Shown: positions 12,751-44,662 of the stretch, piece by piece
Layout: every line of letters begins with the position of its first letter
Position numbering within the stretch: position 1 is the first letter of the stretch
DNA from: Calditrichota bacterium
GTDB taxonomy: Bacteria; Zhuqueibacterota; Zhuqueibacteria; Zhuqueibacterales; Geothermadaptataceae
Direction of reading: 5' to 3'
Assembly (NCBI GenBank): GCA_008501765.1
Contig: QQUE01000007.1
Span: forward strand, 732,186-796,185
DNA: 64,000 nt
Notes under the pieces: generated by a model
What the model was told of the DNA's origin: nothing
The model's input: only the letters and a program-made list of their open reading frames with translations
Databases searched by the model: none
Program-made: the position numbers and the translations under genes

Positions 12751-14454
12751 TTACAACCCTAAAACTAAATCAATACGGTGAGATGCGCTATTCATAACTG
12801 GTTCTACTCTATTTACTTTGATATTCACTTCACGTTTAAATTTGGAAACGTGCAGTTTTTGATAGGGTGAACGATGTAAGTTTCCCCGCTTACCTCGCCA
12901 CTCCAAATAATAAAAATAATTACCGGCGTCCAGCAGTTTTCCGGAGTTTGATTTCCAATCCCAATGAATATACTCCGGCAAATCATACTGGCCGCGAAAC
13001 TCTTTCAAAACGGTTCCGTCGCTGGCCATAATATTTAACTGCCAATCCGAAAGAGCGACAATCCTGTTGTATTTGCGTTTTATTCTCGGTTCAATAACGA
13101 ATTTATTGTTGTTCTGCGACAACGAAAATGCTGATGAAGCGTGTCCATTGGTTTCTGCTCTTACATATTTTTCTGCGTAGCCGTACTCCAAACGATTTTT
13201 CGCGATGCCGTAAACTGCATTTAAATGATGTACAAAAGCGCTGGCAACGCGTTTCTTCTTCTGGCGCACGATGACGCGCAATGTCAAAAGGTTATCCTCA
13301 TTAAGGTGCGTCGTCAGATTTTTTATCAAACCGCCATAATTGACAAGGTAAGCATTAAAATCGATTTCAGGAATTGGTGGTACACTATCCAAAACGACAA
13401 ATCGATAATAAGCCTCATCCGGTCGTGTATCAAATCGTGCTTGCTCAATCAGCTCCTTCGGCTCCGTTGAATCGGCTTCAGAAAGAACGTTTTCAAAAAA
13501 ATGTTGCACACGGCGCTCAGAAATACGCAGTGAATCATAGACAGCATTTACAGCATATTCAATTTGCGGTATTTTACCAAACCGATAAACAAAACTAACC
13601 CGGTGGGAGCCGCTGCTAAACTGATTTAATTCAGTGAGTGCATAGGCAAACTGATAATCCACGCTCATTTTGTTGGAAATATACAACTGGCCACCAACAA
13701 GATACCGGCCACCGTGAAAGCCCGTGCGCAGCAATCCAACGCCCTGATATCCCGATGCGATTTCCAAAACAGGCTCGAACTGCTGCCCTGTCATTCGAAA
13801 TCCCAGCGTCGACTCAAAAAGTCTATGTTTATAAAGAACAGCGCCATTTGTAATGAGCGGCAGGTTTTCACCGGAATTTGACAATGAAACATCCGGTTGG
13901 TTTAATTGATCAAATGACAATCCATAGCGCCACTGATCACTATGCTGATATATAAATCCAACGCCTAAATTCGGCACGAAAACAGAGTTTCCGGAAGAAA
14001 AAACCGGATCATTCTCATCGATCAATTGAAATTTGGATCGATCAAAACTCTCGTTGATAAATCCAATATTTACCCCCCAGGCAAAACTGTCAAATACTCG
14101 AAATGAAGCCGTGATACCCAGTCGACTCTGGGTAAAAATCGGTGTTTTCAGGTAATCACCCTGCAATCCAAAACCAATATTCAATCCCCGAACTTCCGGA
14201 ACTGATATTTGAAACATATCATGTCGCAAACCGAATGCATTATTTTTCAAAAAACCGGAATGCAATGCATGTGTACCGACAATTAGCTGTTCATCCTGAA
14301 AATTAATTATCGCCGGATTGACCGATGCGCTGCCGGGATGATAAAAATCAACTGACGTTGAGGTATTCACATCCTGGCTGCGGGCTACGGCCAGCCAGCC
14401 GATGGTAAAAAATCCAATAATTACAAATAGAAATCGATTGAAAAACACTGACAT
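12751..14454 (-). CDS. PorP/SprF-like outer-membrane barrel with C-terminal FlgD-like region
   Basis: SprF/PorP proteins are outer-membrane barrels that accompany T9SS cargo with type B sorting domains. This product opens with a signal peptide, then DFYHPGSASVNPAI, the family's usual motif of a lipid-exposed start, and alternating strands to about residue 300 that end in HRVSFVYRFGK. It is nearly twice the usual PorP length. Residues 300-440 hold a helical region spaced like a degenerate OmpA domain, and residues 460-540 resemble a FlgD Ig-like domain (LLDAGNYFYYLEW). I start it at the ATG at 14454, after GGGAATTG, not at the TTG six bases earlier. It lies between two sorting-domain proteins, which fits a role in their export or anchoring. 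Confidence 0.78.
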   Translation of the reverse strand: MSVFFNRFLFVIIGFFTIGWLAVARSQDVNTSTSVDFYHPGSASVNPAIINFQDEQLIVGTHALHSGFLKNNAFGLRHDMFQISVPEVRGLNIGFGLQGDYLKTPIFTQSRLGITASFRVFDSFAWGVNIGFINESFDRSKFQLIDENDPVFSSGNSVFVPNLGVGFIYQHSDQWRYGLSFDQLNQPDVSLSNSGENLPLITNGAVLYKHRLFESTLGFRMTGQQFEPVLEIASGYQGVGLLRTGFHGGRYLVGGQLYISNKMSVDYQFAYALTELNQFSSGSHRVSFVYRFGKIPQIEYAVNAVYDSLRISERRVQHFFENVLSEADSTEPKELIEQARFDTRPDEAYYRFVVLDSVPPIPEIDFNAYLVNYGGLIKNLTTHLNEDNLLTLRVIVRQKKKRVASAFVHHLNAVYGIAKNRLEYGYAEKYVRAETNGHASSAFSLSQNNNKFVIEPRIKRKYNRIVALSDWQLNIMASDGTVLKEFRGQYDLPEYIHWDWKSNSGKLLDAGNYFYYLEWRGKRGNLHRSPYQKLHVSKFKREVNIKVNRVEPVMNSASHRIDLVLGL

Positions 14455-14564
14455 GTACAATTCCCATGTTCACCTTTTTGCTATCATCACTACTCCACAT
14501 CGTGCACAGTATTCCTTGTTGAGAGCAAAATTTTTAAAAACAGCACGACTAAATTAAATAAATT

Positions 14565-16754
14565 TCATTTGGCCAGTCCAATCACACCTGTGGCCAGGGT
14601 TTTATCTTTCGTTTTAACGACATATAAATAAGCCCCGGGTTTAAGTTCATTTCCGTCATCATCGCGGCCATACCAAATCAATGGATTTGCAAGTTTTGCT
14701 ATTTGCCGCCCGGCGATATCGAAAATAAAAACAGTGCCTGCCTGTGTTTTAAATTCCGGAAAATCGAACAGGACCTGATCATTGAAACCATCCCCATTGG
14801 GTGTAAACGGATTTGGCATTACCGGGGGCGGCGGCTGTAAAATTTTCAATTTCACCTCAGCCATCCGCTGGATATTATAAACTTGTGCAAGAACTTGAAA
14901 ACTGAACTCGCCAACGCGAACCCCGGTGGCAGTACGGATGTTTAAAACAGCTTCTTCGCCCAAATTCAATTGCTGTGGATTCAGAGAATATTCGAGGTCA
15001 GTGATTCCTGCAAGTCCGTTGATTTGCAAATGCACCGACTCCTCCGGTGCATTGTCTGCAGAAATTGAAATATAAAACCGGGTAGAGTCACCACGGTGTA
15101 TTTCTGCATAAATCGGTGAAACGAGCAAGGAAAAATCATGATAAGCCTGAACATTAAGCCGAAATGGTTTGCTATCCTGGAAATCAGTTGCTGTAGCGAC
15201 AATATCAAAATCATAGTCCCCGTATTTCAACGCACTATCTGCCGCAAAAACGATCCCTATCTCACCCTGCCCCGAAAGAGATGCAGGCGTAAATTGAGCC
15301 GTTACAAGTGAGGGATGGTTACGCAACGTTAACTGAATCGAATTCGAATACGCGGGATTGGTCAATATCCTGGCATTAGCGTGGACAGTTTTTCCGGCGG
15401 TAACCGTTGCAGAATCGGCTGCCAGCTCGAGATAAAATTGATTCTTCTCTTTGATACCAATTTCGTGTGACCCCGGTAAAAGCCATATTTTGTTACCCTG
15501 GCTGTCCTTCGCCGCGAGTTCCTGCAGCTGAAAAGTAATTCTGGTACCTTCCGGTGTCGCGAGACGGGTATTAAAAAGCAGCCGCACCATGTCTCCGGAA
15601 CCACCAAAACCGGCTGTATTATTCTTGTTTTGCAATTGAATTTTCAACGCGCCATTTTCCAATCGTTCAAATTTGTCCAGCAGGAACATATCAGAAAAAG
15701 GTGGTAGCAGGCTAACATCATTTAACTGCGGTTGAATTACAAAATCATTGTTCAAAGTATTGAGAGTAAATTCTAAATACACGAGGTCTTCGACAATTTT
15801 ACTGGCCTCTCCGATAGCAATATTTACGGCAAAAGGTTCGGTTGAATAATAATCCGAAGAGTCTGTGCGGACAGTTATTGGAACCATCGCAACAGAAATA
15901 TGGGACGTTACTGTATGCGATAAATTTCCCGAGCTGCCGGTAAAATTAACCTCGTATTGCGCTGGCGAAATCTGTTCACTCGCGCTCACAGTGACTATCG
16001 CCGTGTCCCCCGGGAGAATTTCGATCGGCTGAATGTTCACATTCAGCCCCGCAATAAATGGTGAATAATTTAATTTAACCGGATTATAAAATCCGCCAAC
16101 GCTCGTTGCTGTTAAAATGAACTCAACTGTTTGTTCCTTATTCAATTCAACAGCATCGGGCGTGACCTTCAAAACAAAATTCTCAGGCTGAACTGCGATT
16201 ACTTCTGTTACCGGACTGATAAACAGCTCGATCGACTCAGCATCTTTGGTTTCCGCTTTGACATCGTAAAGCTCAAATAAGACCAGCGTGCTATCCGCGA
16301 GTAAGGTTGTGGCAGTGAATGGCAGACGCGCCACGATTCCGGCGCCGCTTACACCTTCCGCAGGATATTTTCGTGAATGCGCGATACTCACAACTCCCTG
16401 CGATTGGGCGGGAACACTCAAGAAGAGTGTTGTGTCAGGGTGCACGAGGAGATCACCCCGCATGGAATCGATATCTGTTTTCTCATTAAAAATTATTAAG
16501 TCTGTATGTGAAAAACGAAATTTGAAACTTATGCCAAAGAGCTCTGTCACTGGTTTTTCAGTAGATCCAACATGCACTTCGACCCAAAAAGGAGAGCCGG
16601 CCACAATTTTTTCCGGGGAAAGTGAAATCCACATCGGGGCAGCGAGGGAATCAGCCGTTTGCGCGGATAGGTGGAAATTAGCCAAGCTCATAAAGCTGAT
16701 TAAGCCAAATACCAGGCATTTAATAATTCGAGCTTTTATAAAAAAAGAGAGCAT
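14565..16754 (-). CDS. Secreted cohesin-like/Ig-like protein with type B-like (gliding-associated) C-terminal domain
   Basis: A 729-residue exported protein with a signal peptide (about 1-31). Two cohesin-like domains lie at about 38-190 and 295-425. Two further Ig-like segments, at about 195-290 and 430-640, use pairs such as PDAVELNKEQTVEFIL, common in bacterial surface adhesins. The C-terminus begins PNPFTPNGDGFNDQVLF and ends in a GxYLYVVKT-like strand. This is the CHU_C/FlgD-like type B T9SS signal, whose export usually needs an SprF partner; an SprF-like gene follows 110 bp downstream. It has no catalytic motif. It probably has an adhesive or structural role on the cell surface. It belongs to the same minus-strand cluster as the ExbB/ExbD genes. 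Confidence 0.82.
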   Translation of the reverse strand: MLSFFIKARIIKCLVFGLISFMSLANFHLSAQTADSLAAPMWISLSPEKIVAGSPFWVEVHVGSTEKPVTELFGISFKFRFSHTDLIIFNEKTDIDSMRGDLLVHPDTTLFLSVPAQSQGVVSIAHSRKYPAEGVSGAGIVARLPFTATTLLADSTLVLFELYDVKAETKDAESIELFISPVTEVIAVQPENFVLKVTPDAVELNKEQTVEFILTATSVGGFYNPVKLNYSPFIAGLNVNIQPIEILPGDTAIVTVSASEQISPAQYEVNFTGSSGNLSHTVTSHISVAMVPITVRTDSSDYYSTEPFAVNIAIGEASKIVEDLVYLEFTLNTLNNDFVIQPQLNDVSLLPPFSDMFLLDKFERLENGALKIQLQNKNNTAGFGGSGDMVRLLFNTRLATPEGTRITFQLQELAAKDSQGNKIWLLPGSHEIGIKEKNQFYLELAADSATVTAGKTVHANARILTNPAYSNSIQLTLRNHPSLVTAQFTPASLSGQGEIGIVFAADSALKYGDYDFDIVATATDFQDSKPFRLNVQAYHDFSLLVSPIYAEIHRGDSTRFYISISADNAPEESVHLQINGLAGITDLEYSLNPQQLNLGEEAVLNIRTATGVRVGEFSFQVLAQVYNIQRMAEVKLKILQPPPPVMPNPFTPNGDGFNDQVLFDFPEFKTQAGTVFIFDIAGRQIAKLANPLIWYGRDDDGNELKPGAYLYVVKTKDKTLATGVIGLAK

Positions 16755-27879: not shown

Positions 27880-29262
27880 CTAATCCATGCCGAGGCGCGA
27901 TAATTTATAGAGCAGCGTTGTTGTTTTAATGCCCAACAGCCGCGCCGCTTCGGCTTTCACGCCATGAGCGGTTTGCATCGCCCGTTCAATGAGGTTTTTT
28001 TCAACCTGGTCTAAAGTGTGATTTAAATCCAGATTATCATCTAAAAATGAGAAAACAGATTTTTTATTGTTCAGCAGCGGAGGCAAATCAGCAAGACTGA
28101 CCAAAGAATTCTCACATAAAACCGAGGCTCGTTCGAGTACATTTTCCAATTCACGAATATTACCCGGCCAATTATAATTCTGCAAAGTTTCGGCAACACC
28201 GGTGTCCAATTCCAGTTTTTCATGCCCGAAACGGCGAGCAAATCGCTTTATAAAATGTTGAGTTAACAAAGCAATATCTGCTTCTCGATCGCGCAACGCC
28301 GGCAATGTGATTGGCACTACATGCAATCGATAATAAAGATCCTCACGAAAATCTCCTTTATCGACCAATTCCTGCAGCGATTTATTCGTCGCCGCGATGA
28401 CACGCACATCCACCTGCAAGGTTTCTTCGCCCCCGACACGTTCGAACTCCTTTTCCTGTAAAACACGCAACAGTTTAACTTGCATCGCCGTAGAAATTTC
28501 ACTGACTTCATCGAGGAAAATAGTGCCTGCATCAGCCAATTCAAACCGTCCGGCTTTGCGTTTGAGCGCTCCGGTAAATGCGCCTTTTTCATGACCAAAA
28601 AGTTCAGATTCCAGAATCGTTTCCGCCAGGGCGCCGCAATTAATTCGAATGAACGGCTGATCCGCCCGCGAGCTGTTTTGATGCAGCGCCCGGGCGATCA
28701 ACTCTTTTCCTGTACCTGTTTCGCCGTAGATAATAACCGCTGCATCGGTTATTGCCACTTTCTGCACCGTTCGAAAAACCTGCTGCATCTTCGATGATTC
28801 CCCGATAATCTCACCGTTGTTAAACTCCCGCTTTTCTTCATCGCGCAAGTATTGATTTTCTGCGCTGAGTCGTGAAATTTTTTCGTTACTGGCGATGAGT
28901 TTGCAGATCCGCTCAATTTTCACCCCGATTTCATCAGCGGAAAACGGCTTCGAAATAAAATCAGCCGCACCGGCTTGCATCGCCTGCACAGCGAGATCAA
29001 TGGAACTGAACGCGGTGATCAAAACGGTTTCGATGCCGGGGTATTTTTCTTTAATTTCTCGTATCAATTCCAGCCCGGTTTTGCCGGGCATTTTAAAATC
29101 AGCGATAACAATATGCGGTTGTTCCGTTGCTAAATTTTGCAGACAGCTTTCAGCGTCTGCGTAAGCATTTACCGGAAATCCGAGCAAGTTTATCACCTGC
29201 TCGAGCCCGTCGCGCATAGTTTCATTATCGTCTACTATAGCAACGCGATACTCTTTATTCAT
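27880..29262 (-). CDS. NtrC-family sigma-54-dependent response regulator
   Basis: A 460-residue activator. The receiver domain (about 5-120) has Asp55 in IADFKMPG. A sigma-54 interaction AAA+ domain follows (about 145-380), with GETGTGKE as Walker A, the GAFTGA loop that contacts sigma-54, and DEVSE as Walker B. A Fis-type helix-turn-helix ends the protein (about 415-458, AARLLGIKTTTLLYKLSRLG). Such proteins switch on sigma-54 promoters after phosphorylation by their kinase, here the gene overlapping by 4 bp upstream (29259-29262). The target promoters cannot be named. The downstream coiled-coil and barrel genes suggest a link with the envelope. Confidence 0.95.
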   Translation of the reverse strand: MNKEYRVAIVDDNETMRDGLEQVINLLGFPVNAYADAESCLQNLATEQPHIVIADFKMPGKTGLELIREIKEKYPGIETVLITAFSSIDLAVQAMQAGAADFISKPFSADEIGVKIERICKLIASNEKISRLSAENQYLRDEEKREFNNGEIIGESSKMQQVFRTVQKVAITDAAVIIYGETGTGKELIARALHQNSSRADQPFIRINCGALAETILESELFGHEKGAFTGALKRKAGRFELADAGTIFLDEVSEISTAMQVKLLRVLQEKEFERVGGEETLQVDVRVIAATNKSLQELVDKGDFREDLYYRLHVVPITLPALRDREADIALLTQHFIKRFARRFGHEKLELDTGVAETLQNYNWPGNIRELENVLERASVLCENSLVSLADLPPLLNNKKSVFSFLDDNLDLNHTLDQVEKNLIERAMQTAHGVKAEAARLLGIKTTTLLYKLSRLGMD

Positions 29263-30725
29263 TTGTTTTCCACTTCAAAAATTGGAACTATCAATCGAAA
29301 TTTTGCACCGGATTCGCTCTGCTGCAACGCAAGAAGACTGTTGTTTTCTTCTGCCAGCAGACGGGCAAGTGCAAGCCCGAGACCAGTGCCTTCATTTCTC
29401 GTTGTAAAAAATGGTTGAAATATTTTATCCCTGACTTCAGATGCAACTCCCGGACCATTATCGGATATTATCAGTTGTGCATGATTCCTCTTTTTTTCAC
29501 CCAGAATAGCAACTATCGGGTTTTCACTTTCGCGCACTGCCAGTACGGCATTTTGCAGGAGATTTGACAAGATTTGTCGAATATGGCCGGGATCGATAAA
29601 AACTGTTAAATCATCGGCAATTTGAAGATCCCATCGCAGTCCCCTGTTCTGTGTTTCGAGAACAGCGTGAATTTCGGCAACAACCTGGTTAATATTTACC
29701 ATTTCCGGATTGGCCTGAACGGGTTTGGCATAACTCAAAAAATCGGTAATAATTTCATTCAAATGGTTGACTTCTTTTGTAATCTTGACTATATGTGGTT
29801 GCAACTCTTCGTTTGCTGTTTTTTGCAAAACACTGGCAAATAATTTTATCCCGCCGAGCGGATTGCGTACTTCATGTGCAACGCCGGCAAGCATCATTTG
29901 TTGCCGCTGCTGCCGATCATCGATTGCCTGCCGCATTTCTTCGATTGTTTGGGCTAAAAAAACTATTTCCGAACTCCCGGTTTGTTCAAGGGGTGTATCA
30001 AATTTTCCCCGGCCGACGGCTTCGGCCGCTTTTTCAAGATTTTCCAGCGGCCGGGTCACTTGCCTTGCGATAATTCCCGCCGAGAGCACAGCGCCAATTA
30101 TGGCAAGAATTCCAATTGTGAGCAATACTTTTCGCATGGTATAAATCGCCGCTAATCCTCCTGCGCTGGCTTCAAGGCAGAGCACTGCGGCATTTTTTTG
30201 CTGATCAATTTCCACGGGTATATAGACAGACTTAAACGGTTTATTATTTTGATCGAAAAAAAATCGTGATGTGGAAGGTTGACCTGCAAAGGCTGAATCG
30301 ATTTCCTGCGCATCCAATCGGGCACGATAATACTCAACTCCAATCGGGATCTGCCTGTCGCTATCAAAATAGCAGGCACGGTTCGAATCGAGCAACAAAA
30401 TTCGGGCTATAATTTGGCTACTTAAAACAGGTGCAAAACGGTTGTGCATACCCTGCAATGTTCGGGAATTTTCTTCGCCGGGAACGAGCTGCAGGGCACG
30501 GGTATTTTTAATCTGTTCAGCCGCAACATGGCCGATAACCAGCAGCTTTTGCCCCAGTTCATCTTCCACCGCTTTTCTCACCTGCCAATCGACATAAATT
30601 CCGGAAACGCCAAGAATAATGCCACTTTGAATCAACAGGAAAATAATGAACTGGCTGCGTAGTTTAAGCCGGTTACGAATTCGTGATAGAAAATCAGGCG
30701 CCGAAAGATTGAATTTGTTTTTCAT
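29259..30725 (-). CDS. Membrane sensor histidine kinase with HAMP domain
   Basis: A 488-residue kinase. It has TM1 at about 25-45, a periplasmic sensor segment to about 190, TM2 at about 195-217, and HAMP (TRPLENLEKAAEAVGRG). HisKA carries the phospho-acceptor His in GVAHEVRNPLGG (about 283). HATPase has NLLQNAVLAV, DNGPGV and GTGLGLALA. It is the first gene of a four-gene operon (kinase, NtrC regulator, coiled-coil protein, barrel) and probably passes phosphate to the regulator whose gene overlaps its end. The periplasmic part is unlike any ligand-binding module I can name. Confidence 0.94.
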   Translation of the reverse strand: MKNKFNLSAPDFLSRIRNRLKLRSQFIIFLLIQSGIILGVSGIYVDWQVRKAVEDELGQKLLVIGHVAAEQIKNTRALQLVPGEENSRTLQGMHNRFAPVLSSQIIARILLLDSNRACYFDSDRQIPIGVEYYRARLDAQEIDSAFAGQPSTSRFFFDQNNKPFKSVYIPVEIDQQKNAAVLCLEASAGGLAAIYTMRKVLLTIGILAIIGAVLSAGIIARQVTRPLENLEKAAEAVGRGKFDTPLEQTGSSEIVFLAQTIEEMRQAIDDRQQRQQMMLAGVAHEVRNPLGGIKLFASVLQKTANEELQPHIVKITKEVNHLNEIITDFLSYAKPVQANPEMVNINQVVAEIHAVLETQNRGLRWDLQIADDLTVFIDPGHIRQILSNLLQNAVLAVRESENPIVAILGEKKRNHAQLIISDNGPGVASEVRDKIFQPFFTTRNEGTGLGLALARLLAEENNSLLALQQSESGAKFRLIVPIFEVENK

Positions 30726-35290: not shown

Positions 35291-36973
35291 ATGAAAAGAG
35301 ATATCGAAAAAATCGCATCAAGGGCCTACGATGTTGTAATTATCGGGGGCGGCATTTATGGCGCCTGGGCGCTGTGGGATGCGACGCTACGCGGCTTATC
35401 AGCCCTGTTGATTGACAAAAGTGATTTTGGTGGCGCCACATCTTCAAACAGCCTGAAAATAATTCACGGCGGACTCCGTTATCTGCAACATTTGGATATA
35501 AAACGCATGCGTGAATCCATTCACGAACGCAAGGTACTGATGAGTATTGCGCCGCAATTCGTCCATCCGCTGCCCTGCGTGATGCCGACTTATGGACACG
35601 GCATCAAAGGCAAAGAAGTAATGGGCATGGCTATGCTCATGAATGATATAATTGGATTTGACCGCAACAAAGGCTGCGATCCGCAAAAAAAGTTACCCGC
35701 AGGTAAAGCGATTTCCAAAGATGAATTGCTAAAAATCTTGCCGGGCCTTGATGAAACCAATCTGACGGGTGGTGCAATCTGGTATGATTGCCAGGTTTAT
35801 AATTCTGAAAGGTTACTCATCTCTGTCATAAAATCGGCTGTCAAAAAAGGAGCATCTGCGGCTAATTACGCTCAGGTTACCGAATTTATCACGACCAAAG
35901 ACAAAGTCGTCGGCGTTAAAATTCGTGATGAACTTACCGGAAAACAATTTGAAATTCGCAGCAAAATTGTGCTGAATACCAGCGGGCCGTGGATAAATAA
36001 TATGCTCGGACAATTAAACGGTCACCAGCCGGCTGAAAAATTTCAACTTTCCAAAGCGATGAATCTGGTGGTAAATAAACGGATTACCCAAACGCACGCC
36101 GCTGGAATTCCGAGCAAATTTGAGTTCAAAGACTCGGATGCCGTTATCAACAAAGGGTCGCGACTGCTTTTTTTCACGCCATGGCGCGATTACACACTCA
36201 TCGGCACGACCCACGTGCCCTTCCCCGGTGATCCAAACGACTTTGCCATCACCGAAGACGATGTGACAACATTTCTCGATGAATTTAACCAGGCCTATCC
36301 GGCTATGGCGGTGAAACGCGAGGAAGTCGTTTATTACTACGGTGGTTTGCTGCCTATGGACGATACCGGAGAGCGCGCATCCGAGCATGATGTCAAGTTG
36401 ACAAAACACTATAAATTACTCGATCACCAGGCCGAAAATGGCTTGGATGGACTCGTGAGTGTGCTGGGAGTCAAATATACGACAGCACGTGATGTGGCCA
36501 CAAAAGCCGTCAACATTCTCATGAAAAAATTAAACCGGCAGGGCAAAACTGAAACAGAAAACACCGTTATTTCCGGTGGCGAAATTCCTGATTTTGAAAG
36601 CTACCTGCAGGATGAAAACAAGAAACGTCCCTGGGGTTTGAATGCGGATATAATCGAGCATCTGATTCTCAATTTCGGCAAAGACTACCCGGAAGTGTTG
36701 GAATTTTTAAGCGAAAATGAACAATGGAAAGAAAAAGTGGTCAGCGATTCCGACGTCCTTTTTGCAGAAATCGTGCATGGCATTCGCGATGAAATGGCAG
36801 TGAGATTGGTTGACGTCGTCAAACGGCGGACTGAGCTCGGCTCAGGGGGTTATCCCGGAGACACAGCCGCGAAAAATTGCGCCGATTTGATGGCCAATGA
36901 ACTTGGCTGGGATGAGGAAAAGAAACAGACAGAACTTGAATTTCTCCAGCGATCCTATTTAACGGCAAAATAA
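35291..36973 (+). CDS. glpD: FAD-dependent glycerol-3-phosphate dehydrogenase
   Basis: GlpD oxidises glycerol-3-phosphate to dihydroxyacetone phosphate at the inner membrane and feeds electrons to quinones. The 560-residue product has the FAD-binding motif VVIIGGGIYGAWAL (about 15-28), the family signature GGATSSNSLKIIHGGLRYLQ (about 48-67), and a C-terminal DAO_C-type domain (VVKRRTELGSGGYPGDTAAK). The length is normal for the family. No glpK or glpF is adjacent. The gene is followed by a bidirectional terminator. Confidence 0.94.
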   Translation: MKRDIEKIASRAYDVVIIGGGIYGAWALWDATLRGLSALLIDKSDFGGATSSNSLKIIHGGLRYLQHLDIKRMRESIHERKVLMSIAPQFVHPLPCVMPTYGHGIKGKEVMGMAMLMNDIIGFDRNKGCDPQKKLPAGKAISKDELLKILPGLDETNLTGGAIWYDCQVYNSERLLISVIKSAVKKGASAANYAQVTEFITTKDKVVGVKIRDELTGKQFEIRSKIVLNTSGPWINNMLGQLNGHQPAEKFQLSKAMNLVVNKRITQTHAAGIPSKFEFKDSDAVINKGSRLLFFTPWRDYTLIGTTHVPFPGDPNDFAITEDDVTTFLDEFNQAYPAMAVKREEVVYYYGGLLPMDDTGERASEHDVKLTKHYKLLDHQAENGLDGLVSVLGVKYTTARDVATKAVNILMKKLNRQGKTETENTVISGGEIPDFESYLQDENKKRPWGLNADIIEHLILNFGKDYPEVLEFLSENEQWKEKVVSDSDVLFAEIVHGIRDEMAVRLVDVVKRRTELGSGGYPGDTAAKNCADLMANELGWDEEKKQTELEFLQRSYLTAK

Positions 36974-37028: not shown

Positions 37029-37937
37029 TTATTGAATATTCGGTTTCCGCACAACAAACGCCTTCTGCATCCGAATGCGATTCCCCTTTTTGTTGAATTT
37101 AATCGAATCCATAATATTATCAATAATCGACAAACCGCGTCCATAAACCCGATGGTTAGCCTCCTGACCGATACACGGTTTCTCAAAACCGGGTCCTTCA
37201 TCTTCAATTGTAATTTCCAGATTACCGTTGTCAACGAGAACATCCATAGTTATTTTCCGTGAAGAAAATTTGGGATCAGCCAAGCGATTTTTGCGTATTT
37301 CTTCAAACTTGGAAAACTCAGAGCCATCTGACAACTCATCTTTCCATTGAGATTTCAACTCCAAATTTCCGTGTTCAAGGGCATTTAACAACGCTTCTTC
37401 CACGCCAAGCCAAATATTTAAAAAATCATCAGCAGAAATTTTTGAGTAATCGAGTAAAATATCTTGAAAGACTTTCTGAATTTCTTCAAGCTGGAATTCA
37501 TCAGAAGAAAAGGCAATTTGAACCGACATATTTTTCACTAAATTTGGATATTCGGATTTTAAGCGTTGCGACTGGTAGAGATATTCCGCCCTTTTGATGG
37601 TTTGTAAAATATCATCTTTGCGCAGCGGCTCGACCAAAAAATCAAATACGCCAAGTTTGATGGCGCGCAGTACAGTTTCGTCATAATGTTTGCGAACGAT
37701 TAGAATGACTGGAATCGGTGGATGGATACCTTTCAAATGGCGCAGAATTTCAAATCCGGATTCACGTTCTCCCCGGATGTCGGCGATAACCAAATCCGGT
37801 GCACATTCTTCTAAAAGATTGCCGAACGGTTTTGTCCGATCTGAGCAGGTTATCTTATAATCATTTTCGCGCAGAATCTTAAAAACTGTTTCTCGAATTT
37901 TGCAGTCTTTTTCGACAAATAGAATATTTCTAATCAT
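37029..37937 (-). CDS. Receiver domain fused to RsbW-like serine kinase/anti-sigma ATPase
   Basis: A 302-residue protein. Residues 3-115 are a receiver domain with a normal phospho-acceptor Asp in IADIRGERESG (about 53). Residues 135-295 form an HATPase_c_2 (RsbW/SpoIIAB type) domain with the N box GVEEALLNALEHGN, the G1 box EDEGPGF and a G2-like YGRGLSIID. RsbW-like proteins bind sigma factors or phosphorylate STAS antagonists. Here the receiver may gate that activity. A STAS gene lies at 41594 on the same strand. I start at the ATG at 37937, behind GGGTGA; a GTG at 37949 is possible. Confidence 0.85.
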   Translation of the reverse strand: MIRNILFVEKDCKIRETVFKILRENDYKITCSDRTKPFGNLLEECAPDLVIADIRGERESGFEILRHLKGIHPPIPVILIVRKHYDETVLRAIKLGVFDFLVEPLRKDDILQTIKRAEYLYQSQRLKSEYPNLVKNMSVQIAFSSDEFQLEEIQKVFQDILLDYSKISADDFLNIWLGVEEALLNALEHGNLELKSQWKDELSDGSEFSKFEEIRKNRLADPKFSSRKITMDVLVDNGNLEITIEDEGPGFEKPCIGQEANHRVYGRGLSIIDNIMDSIKFNKKGNRIRMQKAFVVRKPNIQ

Positions 37938-38154
37938 CTCTAAAATCACCCGGTTTCAAGCCCAGGTATTCTTTCTTTTTTTAGAACACACATTGTCCGT
38001 CAGGTAATACTAAACCCGAAAATGATCTGTTTTAATCCAGGTTAAAAACATGCCAAGCATGATTTAACACAAATTTCAAAAAATGCAACAGAAAACAATT
38101 CTTTGCTTGCCTGCAATTTTGTTGAAATGTTCCTGATTCGCACAATAATTGTGG

Positions 38155-39072
38155 TTATCGAAGCACTGCGGTCGGAATTTCCGGTTCGATGAGTTTTTTT
38201 CGGAAGGTGATCTTGTTCCCCGTATCATTAAATTGCACGCTATCTGCAATGTTGCGAATCAACATAAGGCCCATGCCATATACTTTTCCTGAGGCAGCTT
38301 CCCGTATTTTAACTTTATAACCTGTCCCCTGGTCTTGAACCGAAATTTCCAGAATCCCCGCTTCAAGGGTGATTTGAATTAAAATTTTCCGGTTTTTGTA
38401 ATACGGTATTTCGAAACGTTGTCTTTTTACGGAATCAAACATCGTTTCGCCTTCCTCTTCGCCGGGAAGATCTTTCATCGAAGATTCCAGTTCGAGGCTA
38501 CCGTGGTCCAGCGCATTCTGTGCAGCTTCACCCAAGGCCAGCAAGATATTCTGGGTTAATTTACTATTAATCTGGGTATAATGAGAGAGAAAATCGTTTA
38601 CCGCCTGCCGCATTAAATCGATGCACCCATAGGCTGGATGAAATACGAGTTCAACGTGTATTTTGTTAATATAATTAACAGCGTTATTTTGAAATGCACG
38701 ATCATTAAGTCTTTTTTTAACCCGTGCCAGTACAATCGTAAGTTCATCCAACGAAACCGGTGATTTCAGAAAATCAAAAACACCGTTGCGGATGGCTCTA
38801 ACAAGCATAGCATGCTGAATAGTTGATGCGATAAATACCACATGCATTTCAGGATGGTTACATTGGCATATGTGTAAAAACTCCAGCCCATCTTCCGTTT
38901 CTTTATCACAACTGAAGAGTACGATACCAATATTTTGATCTGTATCTATCAGGCTCAAAGCTGCATCAGAATCTGCAACAACCACACAGGGGATTTCTTC
39001 TTTCCGGCAGTAATCCCGGATTGTTCTCAGGTTATTCTCCGATTTTTCAACGAGAAGAATCTTTTGTTTCAT
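38155..39072 (-). CDS. Second receiver-RsbW-like protein; receiver lacks phospho-acceptor
   Basis: A 305-residue paralogue of the preceding protein with the same order: receiver-like domain (about 3-120), then an RsbW-like ATPase (about 140-290) with ALGEAAQNALDHGSLEL, QDQGTGYK and YGMGLMLIRN. In the receiver, LFSCDKETEDG aligns with IADIRGERESG of the other copy, which puts Ser54 where the phospho-acceptor Asp is expected; the acidic pair at the N-terminus is also changed. It is therefore probably a pseudo-receiver or is regulated in another way. It is the second of the two genes that close the signalling island. Confidence 0.82.
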   Translation of the reverse strand: MKQKILLVEKSENNLRTIRDYCRKEEIPCVVVADSDAALSLIDTDQNIGIVLFSCDKETEDGLEFLHICQCNHPEMHVVFIASTIQHAMLVRAIRNGVFDFLKSPVSLDELTIVLARVKKRLNDRAFQNNAVNYINKIHVELVFHPAYGCIDLMRQAVNDFLSHYTQINSKLTQNILLALGEAAQNALDHGSLELESSMKDLPGEEEGETMFDSVKRQRFEIPYYKNRKILIQITLEAGILEISVQDQGTGYKVKIREAASGKVYGMGLMLIRNIADSVQFNDTGNKITFRKKLIEPEIPTAVLR

Positions 39073-39227
39073 GGTAAATATTCCTCAAACCCGTTGTATG
39101 CCGAAATACTGGCGCTCTGAGCAGAAGCAGGTTTTCTCTCAACCTGCGCTATCATTTTAAAAACCATATATTATCTCTATACCAATTTTATTGACTAAAT
39201 TTTTGGATGAAAACCAATTCTCGTTTT

Positions 39228-39311
39228 CTATCCGTTCACTGCAAACACCTCCCAGATTTCGTCAATGAGCATGCTCAAAAGTTCACCCGCACCGGCTGAG
39301 AAAATTTCCAT
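39228..39311 (-). CDS. Possible 27-residue small ORF
   Basis: In the 244-bp gap after the CheA-like gene, an ORF begins a few bases after its stop and encodes MEIFSAGAGELLSMLIDEIW followed by seven more residues. AGGTGG just before the ATG could serve as a ribosome-binding site. It is short and could be chance; nothing else is seen in the gap. Confidence 0.25.
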   Translation of the reverse strand: MEIFSAGAGELLSMLIDEIWEVFAVNG

Positions 39312-39316
39312 TCCAC

Positions 39317-41140
39317 CTATATTAGGCGGTCGCCGCCGGCCAGTGCTTCCAGCAATTTATCGCGAGATAATTTCTTCTCCAGCTCGCTATGATACGCATT
39401 CTGTGGCCACACACTTTCTTTTTCCTTCATTGGTGAAATAAAAATGGGCCATTCCCGTTCACTCTTATTTCCAGAGTTCGCTTCAGTCTTAACCCAATTG
39501 AATTCTTCCGGTATTTTATCATCTGAAATGACAAAATCGAATTGATGAAATTGTATCATTTTACCGGCATCCGCCCAGGTTTCAGCATCCGTAATTATAT
39601 AACCTTCCGGTTCAAGATAGCTGCGATAAATCGATCGCATGAACGGAGATTTATCGACCACAAGAATCCGGTTGTACATATTATCAATTTTCGGCTTTTG
39701 TACATAATTATCAAATAATTGCGGGAATTCATATTTTATTAACTCGATGGGATCGACAACGCGCACTGCGCTTCTATTGAGAAGCAAAGTGCCGGCAGTT
39801 CCCGGTTGCGTGATTTCTTCCTGAACCGGGCTATCGCCGGGAGTTATTACATCGATTACCTCATTTACGATGAACCCAATGTCATTTTGATTAATTCTAA
39901 ATACCACGACAAAAAGCGAATCCTGCCTGGGGCCTGGCACAGCCGAGAGGAATTTATCCAGCCATAAAACAGGCATTTCCTGGTTGCGATATCGCAGCCA
40001 CTCCATTCCGCCGGCTTCTTCCAGTGCTGTAGCAGAAAAAGTTTCGAATCGGGATATTTGGGCCAATGGCAGCGCATATAATTCATTTTTACCTGCAATA
40101 AACAAAAGCAGAGATTGCGGTTTGGAATTAAAAATTTCCGGCCGAAAGGTTTCCGTGCCCACTTTAGCTTTCATCATTTCCAGTTTTAAGGCGGCCGCTA
40201 AAGCCAGCCCGGCACTATCAAGAATGAGGTCAGCCTGGCCATCGGTTTGAAAAGCAACACGTTCATGGCTGTTTCTTGCCATCTCATGTGCAGGGATGTG
40301 CATTTGTTTCAATCCGCCACCTGCAGACTGCGTGCGGTTTTTCATCACACATTCCTGCAGATCGCGGGTAATCAGATTCAATCGCTGGCAAGCAGCCGCA
40401 AAACCGAGTTTGTCAATTTTAGGCACAAATTGCAGGATTTCATTCCGGGAACGGATGAGCTCCCCAACCAGATTTATCATGGTACCGGGCAGTTCCACAT
40501 CATCTCGATTGACAAATTCGGCATTCTCCAAATTTTGCGCGCCGGTCCTTTTTTTACCATCAGAAAGATGCTGTCCGACATCCGTCCTTACTTCCTCAGG
40601 GGGACGCCTCTTTTTCCAAGCGGTCATTTTTACCGTTGCAGATTTTCGGCGATCAACTTCAATATTCTCCGCAAACAAACCCCAGGCGCCATCTTCGGAG
40701 ATAAATTCAGTGGTATTTAAACACGCTTGTGTCGCAGTTTTTTCCGCGTGTTGGCAAAATGCCGTGGTCGATTTTTCATTCGCTATTTTTTGATGAATAA
40801 TTTCCGCAGCACCGGAGGCGATCGGCGTGATCTCGTTGTGCATCGTTTTTAGTTTGTCCAGCGCCTCCAGCATAAAAAGAATCAAATCGGGCGCTATCAC
40901 AACAGGTCCCTTATGCATATTTGCCAATATTTCTTCTGTCGTGTGAGCTACTTTTTCAAATTTATACAGCCCGACCAGGCCGGCATCATCCTTCAATGTG
41001 CGAAAAGCACACACCAGGTTTTCGAGTAAAAGTTTATTGTCCGGCTCCGCCTCAAATGCAACGATATCGTGCTCGAGATTATCGATCAATTCCCGGCTTT
41101 CCCGCAGAAAAACATGCATCAATTCTTCGTCTGGCTGCAT
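39317..41140 (-). CDS. CheA-like protein without HATPase: degenerate Hpt, dimer segment, CheW, receiver
   Basis: A 607-residue chemotaxis-type protein. Residues 1-110 resemble an Hpt helical bundle, but the phospho-acceptor motif F-R-x-x-H appears as FRTLKDDAG, with Lys in place of His. About 220-270 resembles the CheA dimerisation domain (MINLVGELIRSRNEILQF). The HATPase boxes are absent; only a short remnant precedes a CheW-like domain (about 340-465) and a receiver-like domain (about 487-600, with FVISDDKIPE). It cannot be a normal kinase and may act as a CheV/CheW-type scaffold. The ATG at 41140 follows AGAAGG; a TTG at 41164 is less likely. cheY is 31 bp upstream. Confidence 0.78.
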   Translation of the reverse strand: MQPDEELMHVFLRESRELIDNLEHDIVAFEAEPDNKLLLENLVCAFRTLKDDAGLVGLYKFEKVAHTTEEILANMHKGPVVIAPDLILFMLEALDKLKTMHNEITPIASGAAEIIHQKIANEKSTTAFCQHAEKTATQACLNTTEFISEDGAWGLFAENIEVDRRKSATVKMTAWKKRRPPEEVRTDVGQHLSDGKKRTGAQNLENAEFVNRDDVELPGTMINLVGELIRSRNEILQFVPKIDKLGFAAACQRLNLITRDLQECVMKNRTQSAGGGLKQMHIPAHEMARNSHERVAFQTDGQADLILDSAGLALAAALKLEMMKAKVGTETFRPEIFNSKPQSLLLFIAGKNELYALPLAQISRFETFSATALEEAGGMEWLRYRNQEMPVLWLDKFLSAVPGPRQDSLFVVVFRINQNDIGFIVNEVIDVITPGDSPVQEEITQPGTAGTLLLNRSAVRVVDPIELIKYEFPQLFDNYVQKPKIDNMYNRILVVDKSPFMRSIYRSYLEPEGYIITDAETWADAGKMIQFHQFDFVISDDKIPEEFNWVKTEANSGNKSEREWPIFISPMKEKESVWPQNAYHSELEKKLSRDKLLEALAGGDRLI

Positions 41141-41171
41141 GTGCCTTCTCTCCATGCTATTCAAAGTGAAG

Positions 41172-41552
41172 TCATTCCGTCAGTCTCTTCACGACCGCTA
41201 ACAATTGCGCGGGTTGAAATGGTTTCACCAGCCAGCCGGCTGCACCCGCTTTTCGGGCAGCCGGTTCACAGAATTTCATGGAATTTTTTATCAAAACAAG
41301 CACTGGAACGGCAGCATAACTTCCCTGTTTCACAGCCTGCATAAATCGAATTCCGTCACTTTTCGGCATTTGAATATCTGTAATTATCAGCACAATATCA
41401 TCCCCGGATTCAGCCAGTTCTTCAAATTTTCGCAGCCCATCAGCCCCATCGTTGGCCACTATAATTTCATATCCGGCTTGTGTTAAAACATATTTTACAG
41501 AGGCGCGTGTCGTCGCCGAATCTTCGGCCACAAGTATCTTATTTTCCATCAC
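41172..41552 (-). CDS. cheY: CheY-type single-domain response regulator
   Basis: A 126-residue lone receiver. It has VAEDSATTR (acidic pair), Asp59 in IITDIQMPKSDG, and Lys110 in LVKPF. The usual Thr/Ser of the switch appears as Ile/Lys in VLIKNS. It lies between the STAS gene and the CheA-like gene on the same strand. With no active CheA in the island, its phosphate must come from another kinase (inference). Confidence 0.88.
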   Translation of the reverse strand: MMENKILVAEDSATTRASVKYVLTQAGYEIIVANDGADGLRKFEELAESGDDIVLIITDIQMPKSDGIRFMQAVKQGSYAAVPVLVLIKNSMKFCEPAARKAGAAGWLVKPFQPAQLLAVVKRLTE

Positions 41553-41593
41553 TGCACCATTTAATTATGACCGGCAAAATCCAATTTTCATAT

Positions 41594-41899
41594 TTATATC
41601 GCAATCTTAAATAGCTTGTCGAGGTGAATCGAGGTAAATAATGAGGAGAGATTTTCATGTATGCCACCGATTTCAAATTCGCGATTCTGTTCCCTTAGTT
41701 GCCTGAATATTGCGATTAATATGCTGATTCCTGAACTGCAAATTGTCGGAACATAGGTTAAATCAAGCATCACTTTTTGACCTTCAGTTGCAAGCACCGC
41801 ATCAAATCCCTGTCGCAATTTATCAGAATCCGCTGCTGTGACCGAGCCGATCAGTTTTACATTTATCTCCTGGGCAATGGTTGTAATTTCAATATCCAT
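41594..41899 (-). CDS. STAS-domain anti-sigma factor antagonist
   Basis: A 101-residue STAS protein. KVMLDLTYVPTICSSGISIL (about 42-61) contains the Ser pair (S55/S56) where RsbW-type kinases phosphorylate SpoIIAA-like proteins. It is the first gene of the island, with cheY 41 bp downstream. It would be the natural substrate of the two RsbW-like proteins at 37-39 kb (inference). Confidence 0.9.
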   Translation of the reverse strand: MDIEITTIAQEINVKLIGSVTAADSDKLRQGFDAVLATEGQKVMLDLTYVPTICSSGISILIAIFRQLREQNREFEIGGIHENLSSLFTSIHLDKLFKIAI

Positions 41900-44127: not shown

Positions 44128-44412
44128 ATGGCCGGTACAATCTTAAATACCCGCGTCGATCCGGAAGTTCTTGAAAACGCGGAAAATATCTTAAAAACAC
44201 TCGGTATAAGTCGATCAGTAGCAATCAACATGTTTTACCGGATGGTTATTCTCAAGCAAGGCTTACCCTGGCGACCCAACCTTGACGAAACCGAATATGT
44301 GATGAATAACCCGAAACTCGTACAGCAAATCGAACAGGGGATTAAAGATTTTGAAGAAGGAAAATTCTTTCCGGCACCACAAAAGGTGGTAGATGAGATC
44401 AATAGCCTTTAA
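44128..44412 (+). CDS. relB: RelB/DinJ-family antitoxin
   Basis: A 94-residue protein whose N-terminal half, MAGTILNTRVDPEVLENAEN followed by LKTLGISRSVAINMFYRMVI, is a ribbon-helix-helix DNA-binding domain of the RelB/DinJ type. The C-terminal part (IKDFEEGKFFPAPQK) would wrap the toxin. AAGGAA precedes the ATG. Its last codons overlap the toxin gene by 20 bp, the usual antitoxin-toxin coupling. RelB-type antitoxins usually repress their own promoter; no operator was identified. Confidence 0.9.
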   Translation: MAGTILNTRVDPEVLENAENILKTLGISRSVAINMFYRMVILKQGLPWRPNLDETEYVMNNPKLVQQIEQGIKDFEEGKFFPAPQKVVDEINSL

Positions 44413-44662
44413 CAATCGGTCATTTGAAGAATACGAAAAGCTTCGTCGAAAGAATAAAACGCTGCACAAGAAATTGTTGAATTTACTAATCGAAATGCAG
44501 CGTGGAAAGCCTTGGGAAGGCATCGGTAAACCAGAATTATTGAAAGGGAATTATGCAGGTTTATGGTCAAGACGCATATCAGACAGGGATCGAGTTATTT
44601 ACCGTTTTGATGATAAAATGATTTATATTTACGCAATCGGCGGGCATTATGATGATCGATGA
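44393..44662 (+). CDS. yoeB: YoeB-family mRNA interferase toxin
   Basis: An 89-residue toxin of the Txe/YoeB family, which cleaves mRNA on the ribosome. GKPWEGIGKPELLKGNYAG and LWSRRISDRDRVIYR are the family signature, with the catalytic Glu and Arg in place. The C-terminus AIGGHYDDR keeps the His-Tyr pair that ends E. coli YoeB, with three extra residues. The N-terminus lacks the usual Trp-rich start. It forms an operon with relB. It sits just downstream of the broken glycosyltransferase. Confidence 0.9.
   Translation: MRSIAFNNRSFEEYEKLRRKNKTLHKKLLNLLIEMQRGKPWEGIGKPELLKGNYAGLWSRRISDRDRVIYRFDDKMIYIYAIGGHYDDR

Follow-up and report, generated by a model that had tools for sequence, protein, structure and literature searches.

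Partner-switch proteins in a probable remnant of a chemosensory gene cluster of a Calditrichota bacterium

Five signalling genes on one strand

A 64,000-nucleotide stretch of a Calditrichota bacterium genome (GenBank assembly GCA_008501765.1, contig QQUE01000007.1; G000:C14:732186-796185 in the genome set used here) carries a compact group of signalling genes that combines chemotaxis-type and partner-switching parts. This whole stretch is referred to as the window, and positions are counted from its first letter; the genome, G000, comprises 5.9 Mb in 21 contigs at 98.9% completeness. Five open frames occupy the minus strand between 37029 and 41899, encoding in transcription order a STAS protein, a CheY, a CheA-like protein and two receiver-HATPase_c_2 proteins, B and then A. 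The frames and their Pfam domains bear out a first-pass annotation of the locus, which had read five signalling genes on one strand. All domains score above the Pfam cut-off except the receiver of the CheA-like protein (28.4 versus 30.2 bits). By coordinates the genes are separated by 41, 7, 244 and 205 bases; since the first two gaps are so short, a single transcript for the STAS, CheY and CheA-like genes is plausible, with B and A lying beyond the longer gaps. Alignment to the copies in G001, a genome of the same genus, puts the likely true start of the CheA-like gene at the ATG at 41140 and that of the protein A gene at the ATG at 37937.

The first gene (41594..41899) encodes a single-domain STAS protein of 101 residues (PF01740, E 7.3e-11), 56% identical to its G001 counterpart. 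It is a candidate anti-sigma-factor antagonist, having both the STAS domain and the phosphorylatable serine of that class: Ser55 is present, and the serine is invariant in 11/11 aligned STAS proteins. The TIGR00377 (ant_ant_sig) profile gives 38.6 bits, with a cut-off of 53.45. The second gene (41172..41552) encodes a single CheY-like receiver (PF00072, E 1.5e-19) that, in an alignment with four relatives, keeps the Asp and Lys and has Ile at the place of the conserved Thr.

The CheA-like protein (39317..41164, 615 residues) retains by Pfam an HPt domain, a linker, the P3 dimerisation domain (PF02895, E 1.9e-7), the second CheW domain (PF01584, E 1e-12) and part of a receiver (profile positions 1-54 of 111), with no HATPase_c (P4) match whatever. 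Its HPt domain is recognisable (PF01627, 26.7 versus 24.6 bits), but the phospho-accepting His, found at the equivalent place in 10/10 compared CheA relatives, has become Arg55 (codon at 41000..41002). A global alignment to the CheA of G001 shows a single in-frame gap, with its junction at 40243..40244, that corresponds to residues 311-588 of the G001 protein and removes the ATPase domain (Pfam 326-466 in G001) together with the greater part of the first CheW domain (472-604). Orthologues in G001, G004, G024 and G034 are 896-934 residues long, and P4 is recognised by Pfam in those of G001 and G024. The earlier designation as CheA-like thus holds for the P3, CheW and HPt domains; both hallmarks of a CheA histidine kinase, the HATPase_c domain and the HPt His, are absent from the window protein.

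The remaining genes encode the RsbW-type ATPases B (38155..39072, 305 residues, PF13581 E 1.1e-16) and A (37029..37949, 306 residues, PF13581 E 3.2e-17). Each has the HATPase_c_2 domain with an intact ATP site that marks an RsbW/SpoIIAB-type protein: the Glu, the Asn, DxGxG and GxG are invariant in 14/14 aligned receiver-RsbW proteins, both window copies included. The structural model of B (predicted local distance difference test, pLDDT, 84.8) has LvrC and SpoIIAB among its structure matches and reaches a TM-score of 0.81 by target length on the SpoIIAB fold 1th8. For B the NCBIfam model spIIAB scores no more than 21.5 bits, far from its cut-off of 135. Most likely, A and B still phosphorylate the STAS protein.

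Their receivers are another matter. The phosphorylation pocket of a receiver is made of an acid pair, the phospho-accepting Asp, a Thr or Ser, and a Lys. B has lost the Asp; A keeps it, with Glu-Lys in place of the acid pair and Val and Glu at the Thr/Ser and Lys places. Neither has the full pocket of a phospho-acceptor response regulator, and these pseudo-receivers are proposed to serve as docking or dimer modules. The G001 copies show the same receiver degeneration. Protein A is 71% identical to its G001 copy; in B, identity is 54.9% over the HATPase part and 33.6% over the receiver.

A complete cluster in relatives

In G001 the same neighbour genes stand on both sides, with 11 genes between them instead of five. 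The common flanks, named partly by reading and partly by Pfam, are a methyltransferase and a glycosyltransferase-like gene, and a glycerol-3-phosphate-dehydrogenase-like gene and another methyltransferase. The G001 cluster encodes a protein resembling methyl-accepting chemotaxis proteins (MCP-like), STAS, CheY, CheA, CheW, a PAS-MCP, CheY, CheB, CheR and the receiver-RsbW proteins B and A, and its CheA is complete (HPt, P3, P4, two CheW domains, receiver). The window copy lacks six of these genes, for the MCP-like protein, CheW, MCP, second CheY, CheB and CheR; given a full cluster between the same flanks in G001, they have been lost. Because the receivers of G001 are equally degenerate, their decay is older than the loss of the sensory genes.

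What is left of the missing genes? No MCP-like remnants were found upstream of the window STAS gene. In relatives an intact cheW directly follows cheA, and at the matching place a 27-residue stretch (39234..39314) resembles CheW with a BLOSUM62 score of 44, equalled by 9/5000 shuffles and by 1/1000 real windows of the same length; against the CheW proteins of G004 and G024, 56 and 355 shuffles out of 5000 did as well. It is at best a weak candidate for a cheW fossil. A CheR-like match in the 41-base gap between the STAS gene and cheY (score 30, 10 residues), which came up among about 64 comparisons, was disregarded.

The order STAS, CheY, CheA, CheW, MCP, CheB, CheR, receiver-RsbW is shared on single contigs of G001, G004 and G024, in line with the first-pass suggestion that the two kinds of parts belong together. 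A search with protein A in 60 genomes gave nine clear relatives reaching the RsbW part (E at most 2e-38), in G000, G001, G002 (a fragment), G004, G006, G019, G024, G031 and G034 (receiver mostly missing); in the other 51, among the matches listed, the best had E 6e-16 and lay mainly in the receiver. Clear relatives of the MCP-like protein (E below 1e-40) occur in 7/63 genomes of the class: G001, G002, G004, G006, G024, G031 and G037. Contig ends divide the gene set in G006 and G002. G031 has STAS and the start of CheA at one contig end and a receiver-RsbW gene on a different contig without che genes; G034 has RsbW, receiver-PP2C, HPt and CheR genes together, and a CheA on another contig with no STAS gene seen adjoining. 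In G019 the receiver-RsbW gene adjoins a second che cluster. The phylogenetic profile proposed by the first-pass annotation as a check thus finds the genes grouped, not scattered, in relatives.

Gene order therefore indicates that the pairing of chemosensory with partner-switch genes is real and ancestral, because G001 carries the full cluster between the same flanks, and that the window holds a reduced derivative of it. Its origin by deletion from a complete che cluster, for which these comparisons argue, had escaped the first-pass annotation. We consider it moderately probable that the locus descends from a chemosensory cluster that signalled through a protein partner switch. Complete clusters are represented by G001, G004 and G024. 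In these, receptors, CheW and CheA would be the sensory unit and CheA would phosphorylate the receivers; the serine phosphorylation of STAS would be set by the receiver-RsbW protein working against a receiver-PP2C phosphatase, and would in turn determine which partner STAS binds. G000 would have lost the sensory half (MCP-like, CheW, MCP, second CheY, CheB, CheR and the CheA kinase domain) by deletion, leaving STAS, two RsbW-type kinases whose pseudo-receivers would act as docking or dimer modules, and the CheA remnant.

A candidate phosphatase for such a switch is encoded elsewhere in G000. Receiver-PP2C and HPt genes adjoin the RsbW gene in G024 and G034; G000 has its receiver-PP2C orthologue, unlinked, at C3:488290-489498 (45% identity, E 1.7e-111), and G001 has one in synteny with it. 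Since G000 has 19 SpoIIE-type and 18 HATPase_c_2 matches in total, its other partner switches may share parts.

Could phosphorylated receivers instead gate the RsbW kinases, in an intact new pathway under the CheA-like protein? This had been the first-pass proposal. The RsbW proteins of G024 and G031 and copy B of G004 do carry canonical receivers, and such gating may hold for complete clusters. The sequence does not support it for this copy, in which B lacks the Asp, and A the acid pair, Thr/Ser and Lys, while the CheA has neither ATPase domain nor phospho-His; as an account of the window locus it is very improbable.

The place of the STAS gene, directly before cheY and cheA in complete clusters, raises a different possibility: STAS may be a CheA accessory like the rhizobial CheS, rather than an RsbW substrate, with the two RsbW-type proteins acting elsewhere. 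By position the window gene would also suit a putative CheS. CheS, known from alphaproteobacterial che clusters, consists of STAS alone; it binds CheA and directs the flow of phosphate to one or other of two CheYs (PMC12654446). A motif in the window CheA, described below, is a candidate STAS binding site. On the other side, the phosphorylatable serine is invariant, STAS has outlasted the kinase function of CheA, and the two similar CheA clusters of G003, which have no RsbW, also lack a STAS gene beside CheA (from reading the list of open reading frames, ORFs). STAS further pairs with receiver-RsbW where che genes are absent. A scan of 84,980 species genomes with a single 9-residue peptide pattern, and so biased to close relatives, matched 61 stretches, of which 35 loci were confirmed, several in genomes already named above; at 5 of the 35 (L090-L094; three records are titled Deltaproteobacteria) the STAS gene lies directly before a receiver-RsbW gene with no che genes. 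The receivers of these five RsbW proteins are likewise pseudo-receivers. The CheS-like account is on balance unlikely.

The same scan brought up L110 719-6937, from a Thermodesulfovibrio record, where an RsbW and PP2C-type protein gene adjoins genes for a CheA-P4-like protein and a CheB/CheR fusion, by its gene content apparently another chemosensory and partner-switch neighbourhood.

Rates of change and the linker motif

Relative rates were counted as amino-acid changes unique to G000 versus those unique to G001, with G004 as outgroup unless stated. CheA has 170 versus 32 (p 6e-24), about five times the G001 changes, and CheY 26 versus 7 (40 versus 2 with outgroup G002). STAS stands at 13 versus 9 and protein A at 18 versus 10 (p 0.18). 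Flanking genes give 27 versus 25 and 14 versus 10, or 9 versus 8 and 14 versus 9 with outgroup G002. With G024 as outgroup the counts are 137 versus 42 for CheA, 24 versus 5 for CheY and 16 versus 6 for STAS. CheA and CheY thus appear clearly accelerated in G000, B and perhaps STAS mildly so, and A not significantly.

These counts bear on whether the whole locus is decaying and functionless, its open frames being remnants not yet broken. The loss of six genes and the CheA kinase domain, the loss of phospho-sites, and the strong acceleration of CheA and CheY with a milder one of STAS and B are what decay would leave. All five frames are open, however, and indels in the CheA remnant keep the frame. 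At a neutral expectation of 0.050 nonsense changes per missense change, about 8 stops should accompany the 170 CheA changes, and none is seen; the CheA frame would therefore have been kept through most of the change, for the sake of the protein or of the downstream genes, as polarity on these could also favour an open CheA frame. A neutral pseudogene is accordingly not favoured for CheA. A codon model rejects omega = 1 for the G000 branch of CheA (2dlnL 15.4), although synonymous sites are saturated and several branch lengths sit at the bound of 12, which is why the relative-rate counts are relied on here. Together with the lack of significant acceleration in A, this makes wholesale decay quite unlikely.

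Several observations weigh against the preferred account of a reduced cluster with a surviving partner switch. Only one genome shows the reduced state. The partner-switch half is also touched: B has 31 versus 14 unique changes (p 0.016), its HATPase part 20 versus 5, and STAS 24 versus 8 (p 0.007) with outgroup G002. The AlphaFold model of the CheA remnant, built on an 8-sequence alignment, has a mean pLDDT of 48.7 and is poor save for the HPt domain and the first part of the receiver, so that it cannot serve to assess folding. Finally, the locus has neither a PP2C nor a sigma factor gene. That no sigma factor gene is nearby had been pointed out before and agrees with the 44 window ORFs scanned with Pfam, none of which encodes one (35291-36973, the glycerol-3-phosphate-dehydrogenase-like gene, is among the ORFs outside that scan).

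In the otherwise variable linker between HPt and P3 of the cluster CheAs sits a motif, [E/D]DGxWGLFxENI, represented in the window by SEDGAWGLFAENIE (40658..40699). It is present in 7/7 readable cluster CheAs of genomes with an RsbW protein, the window's included (G000, G001, partially in G002, G004 twice, G006 twice, G024 and G034, with small departures in G002 and G034), and in 0/8 other CheA sequences read. The latter are two from G003, a partial one from G005, the truncated G019 protein and the second CheAs of G024, G034, G019 and G031; the G005 sequence is a fragment starting inside the linker, and its lack of the motif is weak evidence. G019 has an RsbW protein, yet its truncated CheA lacks the motif, and in G031 a contig end cuts off the cluster CheA ahead of its linker.

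The motif is a candidate docking peptide. One tentative and rather doubtful extension is that in this KSB1 lineage the array was wired to the STAS/RsbW switch through the linker peptide, and that the window CheA dimer is a kinase-dead scaffold still presenting it to the pseudo-receiver-RsbW proteins or to STAS. The first-pass idea of a CheA-like scaffold survives to that extent as a possibility, with dimer and CheW domains and linker motif kept; kinase and phospho-site are lost. The remnant would be either a non-catalytic dimeric scaffold held by the WGLF linker motif or a protein being lost.

The truncated G019 protein is of interest by itself. At L050 4232-6330, CheA breaks off once the dimerisation domain has begun, and a multi-receiver protein follows in another frame; this looks like an independent break in a related CheA of a genome that keeps its receiver-RsbW.

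Related systems, inputs and surroundings

A few proteobacteria are known to couple His-Asp phosphorelays to partner switches. No description of a che cluster with STAS and receiver-RsbW genes was found in a literature search, which is not proof of absence; a complete cluster of this kind, in some relatives with receiver-PP2C and HPt as well, would extend such links to chemosensory arrays. The window copy would then amount to a natural deletion experiment in which receptors, CheW and the CheA kinase were dispensable, while the RsbW ATP sites, the STAS serine and the linker motif stayed; the retained parts may therefore point to those that talk to each other.

The closest known system appears to be HptB/HsbR/HsbA of Pseudomonas aeruginosa, which comprises HPt, receiver, RsbW-type kinase, PP2C and STAS parts encoded next to cheR, cheW and flgM (PMC5085249; PMC6482189). 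The part types are the same, and the HPt, receiver-PP2C, RsbW, cheR and FlgM-like neighbourhood of G034 recalls hsb/flgM. Kinase and phosphatase are joined in the one protein HsbR and separate in this lineage, the KSB1 relatives add a whole che cluster, and the window locus lacks the HPt gene, PP2C gene and flgM. Without a single receiver-PP2C-kinase protein and linked HPt and STAS genes, it is not a member of that system by architecture.

SypE/SypA of Vibrio fischeri also has a receiver-bearing RsbW-type kinase acting on a STAS protein; SypE carries a phosphatase too, and the part of the paper available apparently involves no che genes (PMC3610818). Rhizobial CheS resembles the window STAS in being a STAS-only protein encoded within a che cluster, but its partner is an active CheA, and no RsbW-type proteins are named in the accessible text (PMC12654446). 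LvrC (SenB) of Leptospira (PDB 9qih) shares the full-length receiver-RsbW architecture (phmmer E 2.4e-16 with A, profile E 5e-39), although its overall domain arrangement superposes poorly on the model of B (TM 0.44). A CheA survey reports, in the part seen, HATPase_c in every CheA; the window remnant shares HPt, P3, CheW and receiver with the surveyed proteins and lacks that domain (PMC10542144).

Inputs and outputs can be approached through relatives. The cluster chemoreceptors of G004 (L039 9359-11530) and G024 (L040 11039-13549) combine globin with PAS domains and thereby point to gas or redox state as the input of the complete cluster; in G004 a separate globin gene adjoins the receptor (L039 11996-12424). 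In G034 a FlgM-like gene (L044 2950-3300; E 3.7e-4, below the Pfam cut-off) adjoins the HPt, receiver-PP2C, RsbW and CheR genes. Pfam detects FlgM in 0/12 genomes, and as clear relatives of the G034 protein occur only in G024 and G037, there is no case for an FlgM output in G000. G000 retains flagellin genes and another CheA-like gene, and loss of this array therefore need not equal loss of chemotaxis.

The first-pass annotation had called the locus an island. The gene group is real, but foreign DNA is rejected, because its GC content (guanine plus cytosine) at each codon position is similar to that of the neighbouring DNA and its place is syntenic in G001. A promoter and terminator scan (21 promoter-like sites versus 12.2 in shuffles) was not used. 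A RelB/YoeB-type toxin-antitoxin pair on the plus strand (44128-44662) sits exactly at the end of the G001 synteny; neither the pair nor the next gene was found in the fetched G001 stretch. About 8 kb from the cluster, a sigma-54-type response regulator (27880-29262) adjoins a HAMP sensor histidine kinase (together 27880-30725, minus strand). Further away, on the minus strand at 12751-16754, lie Type IX secretion-like genes for a PorP/SprF protein and a CHU_C sorting-domain protein.

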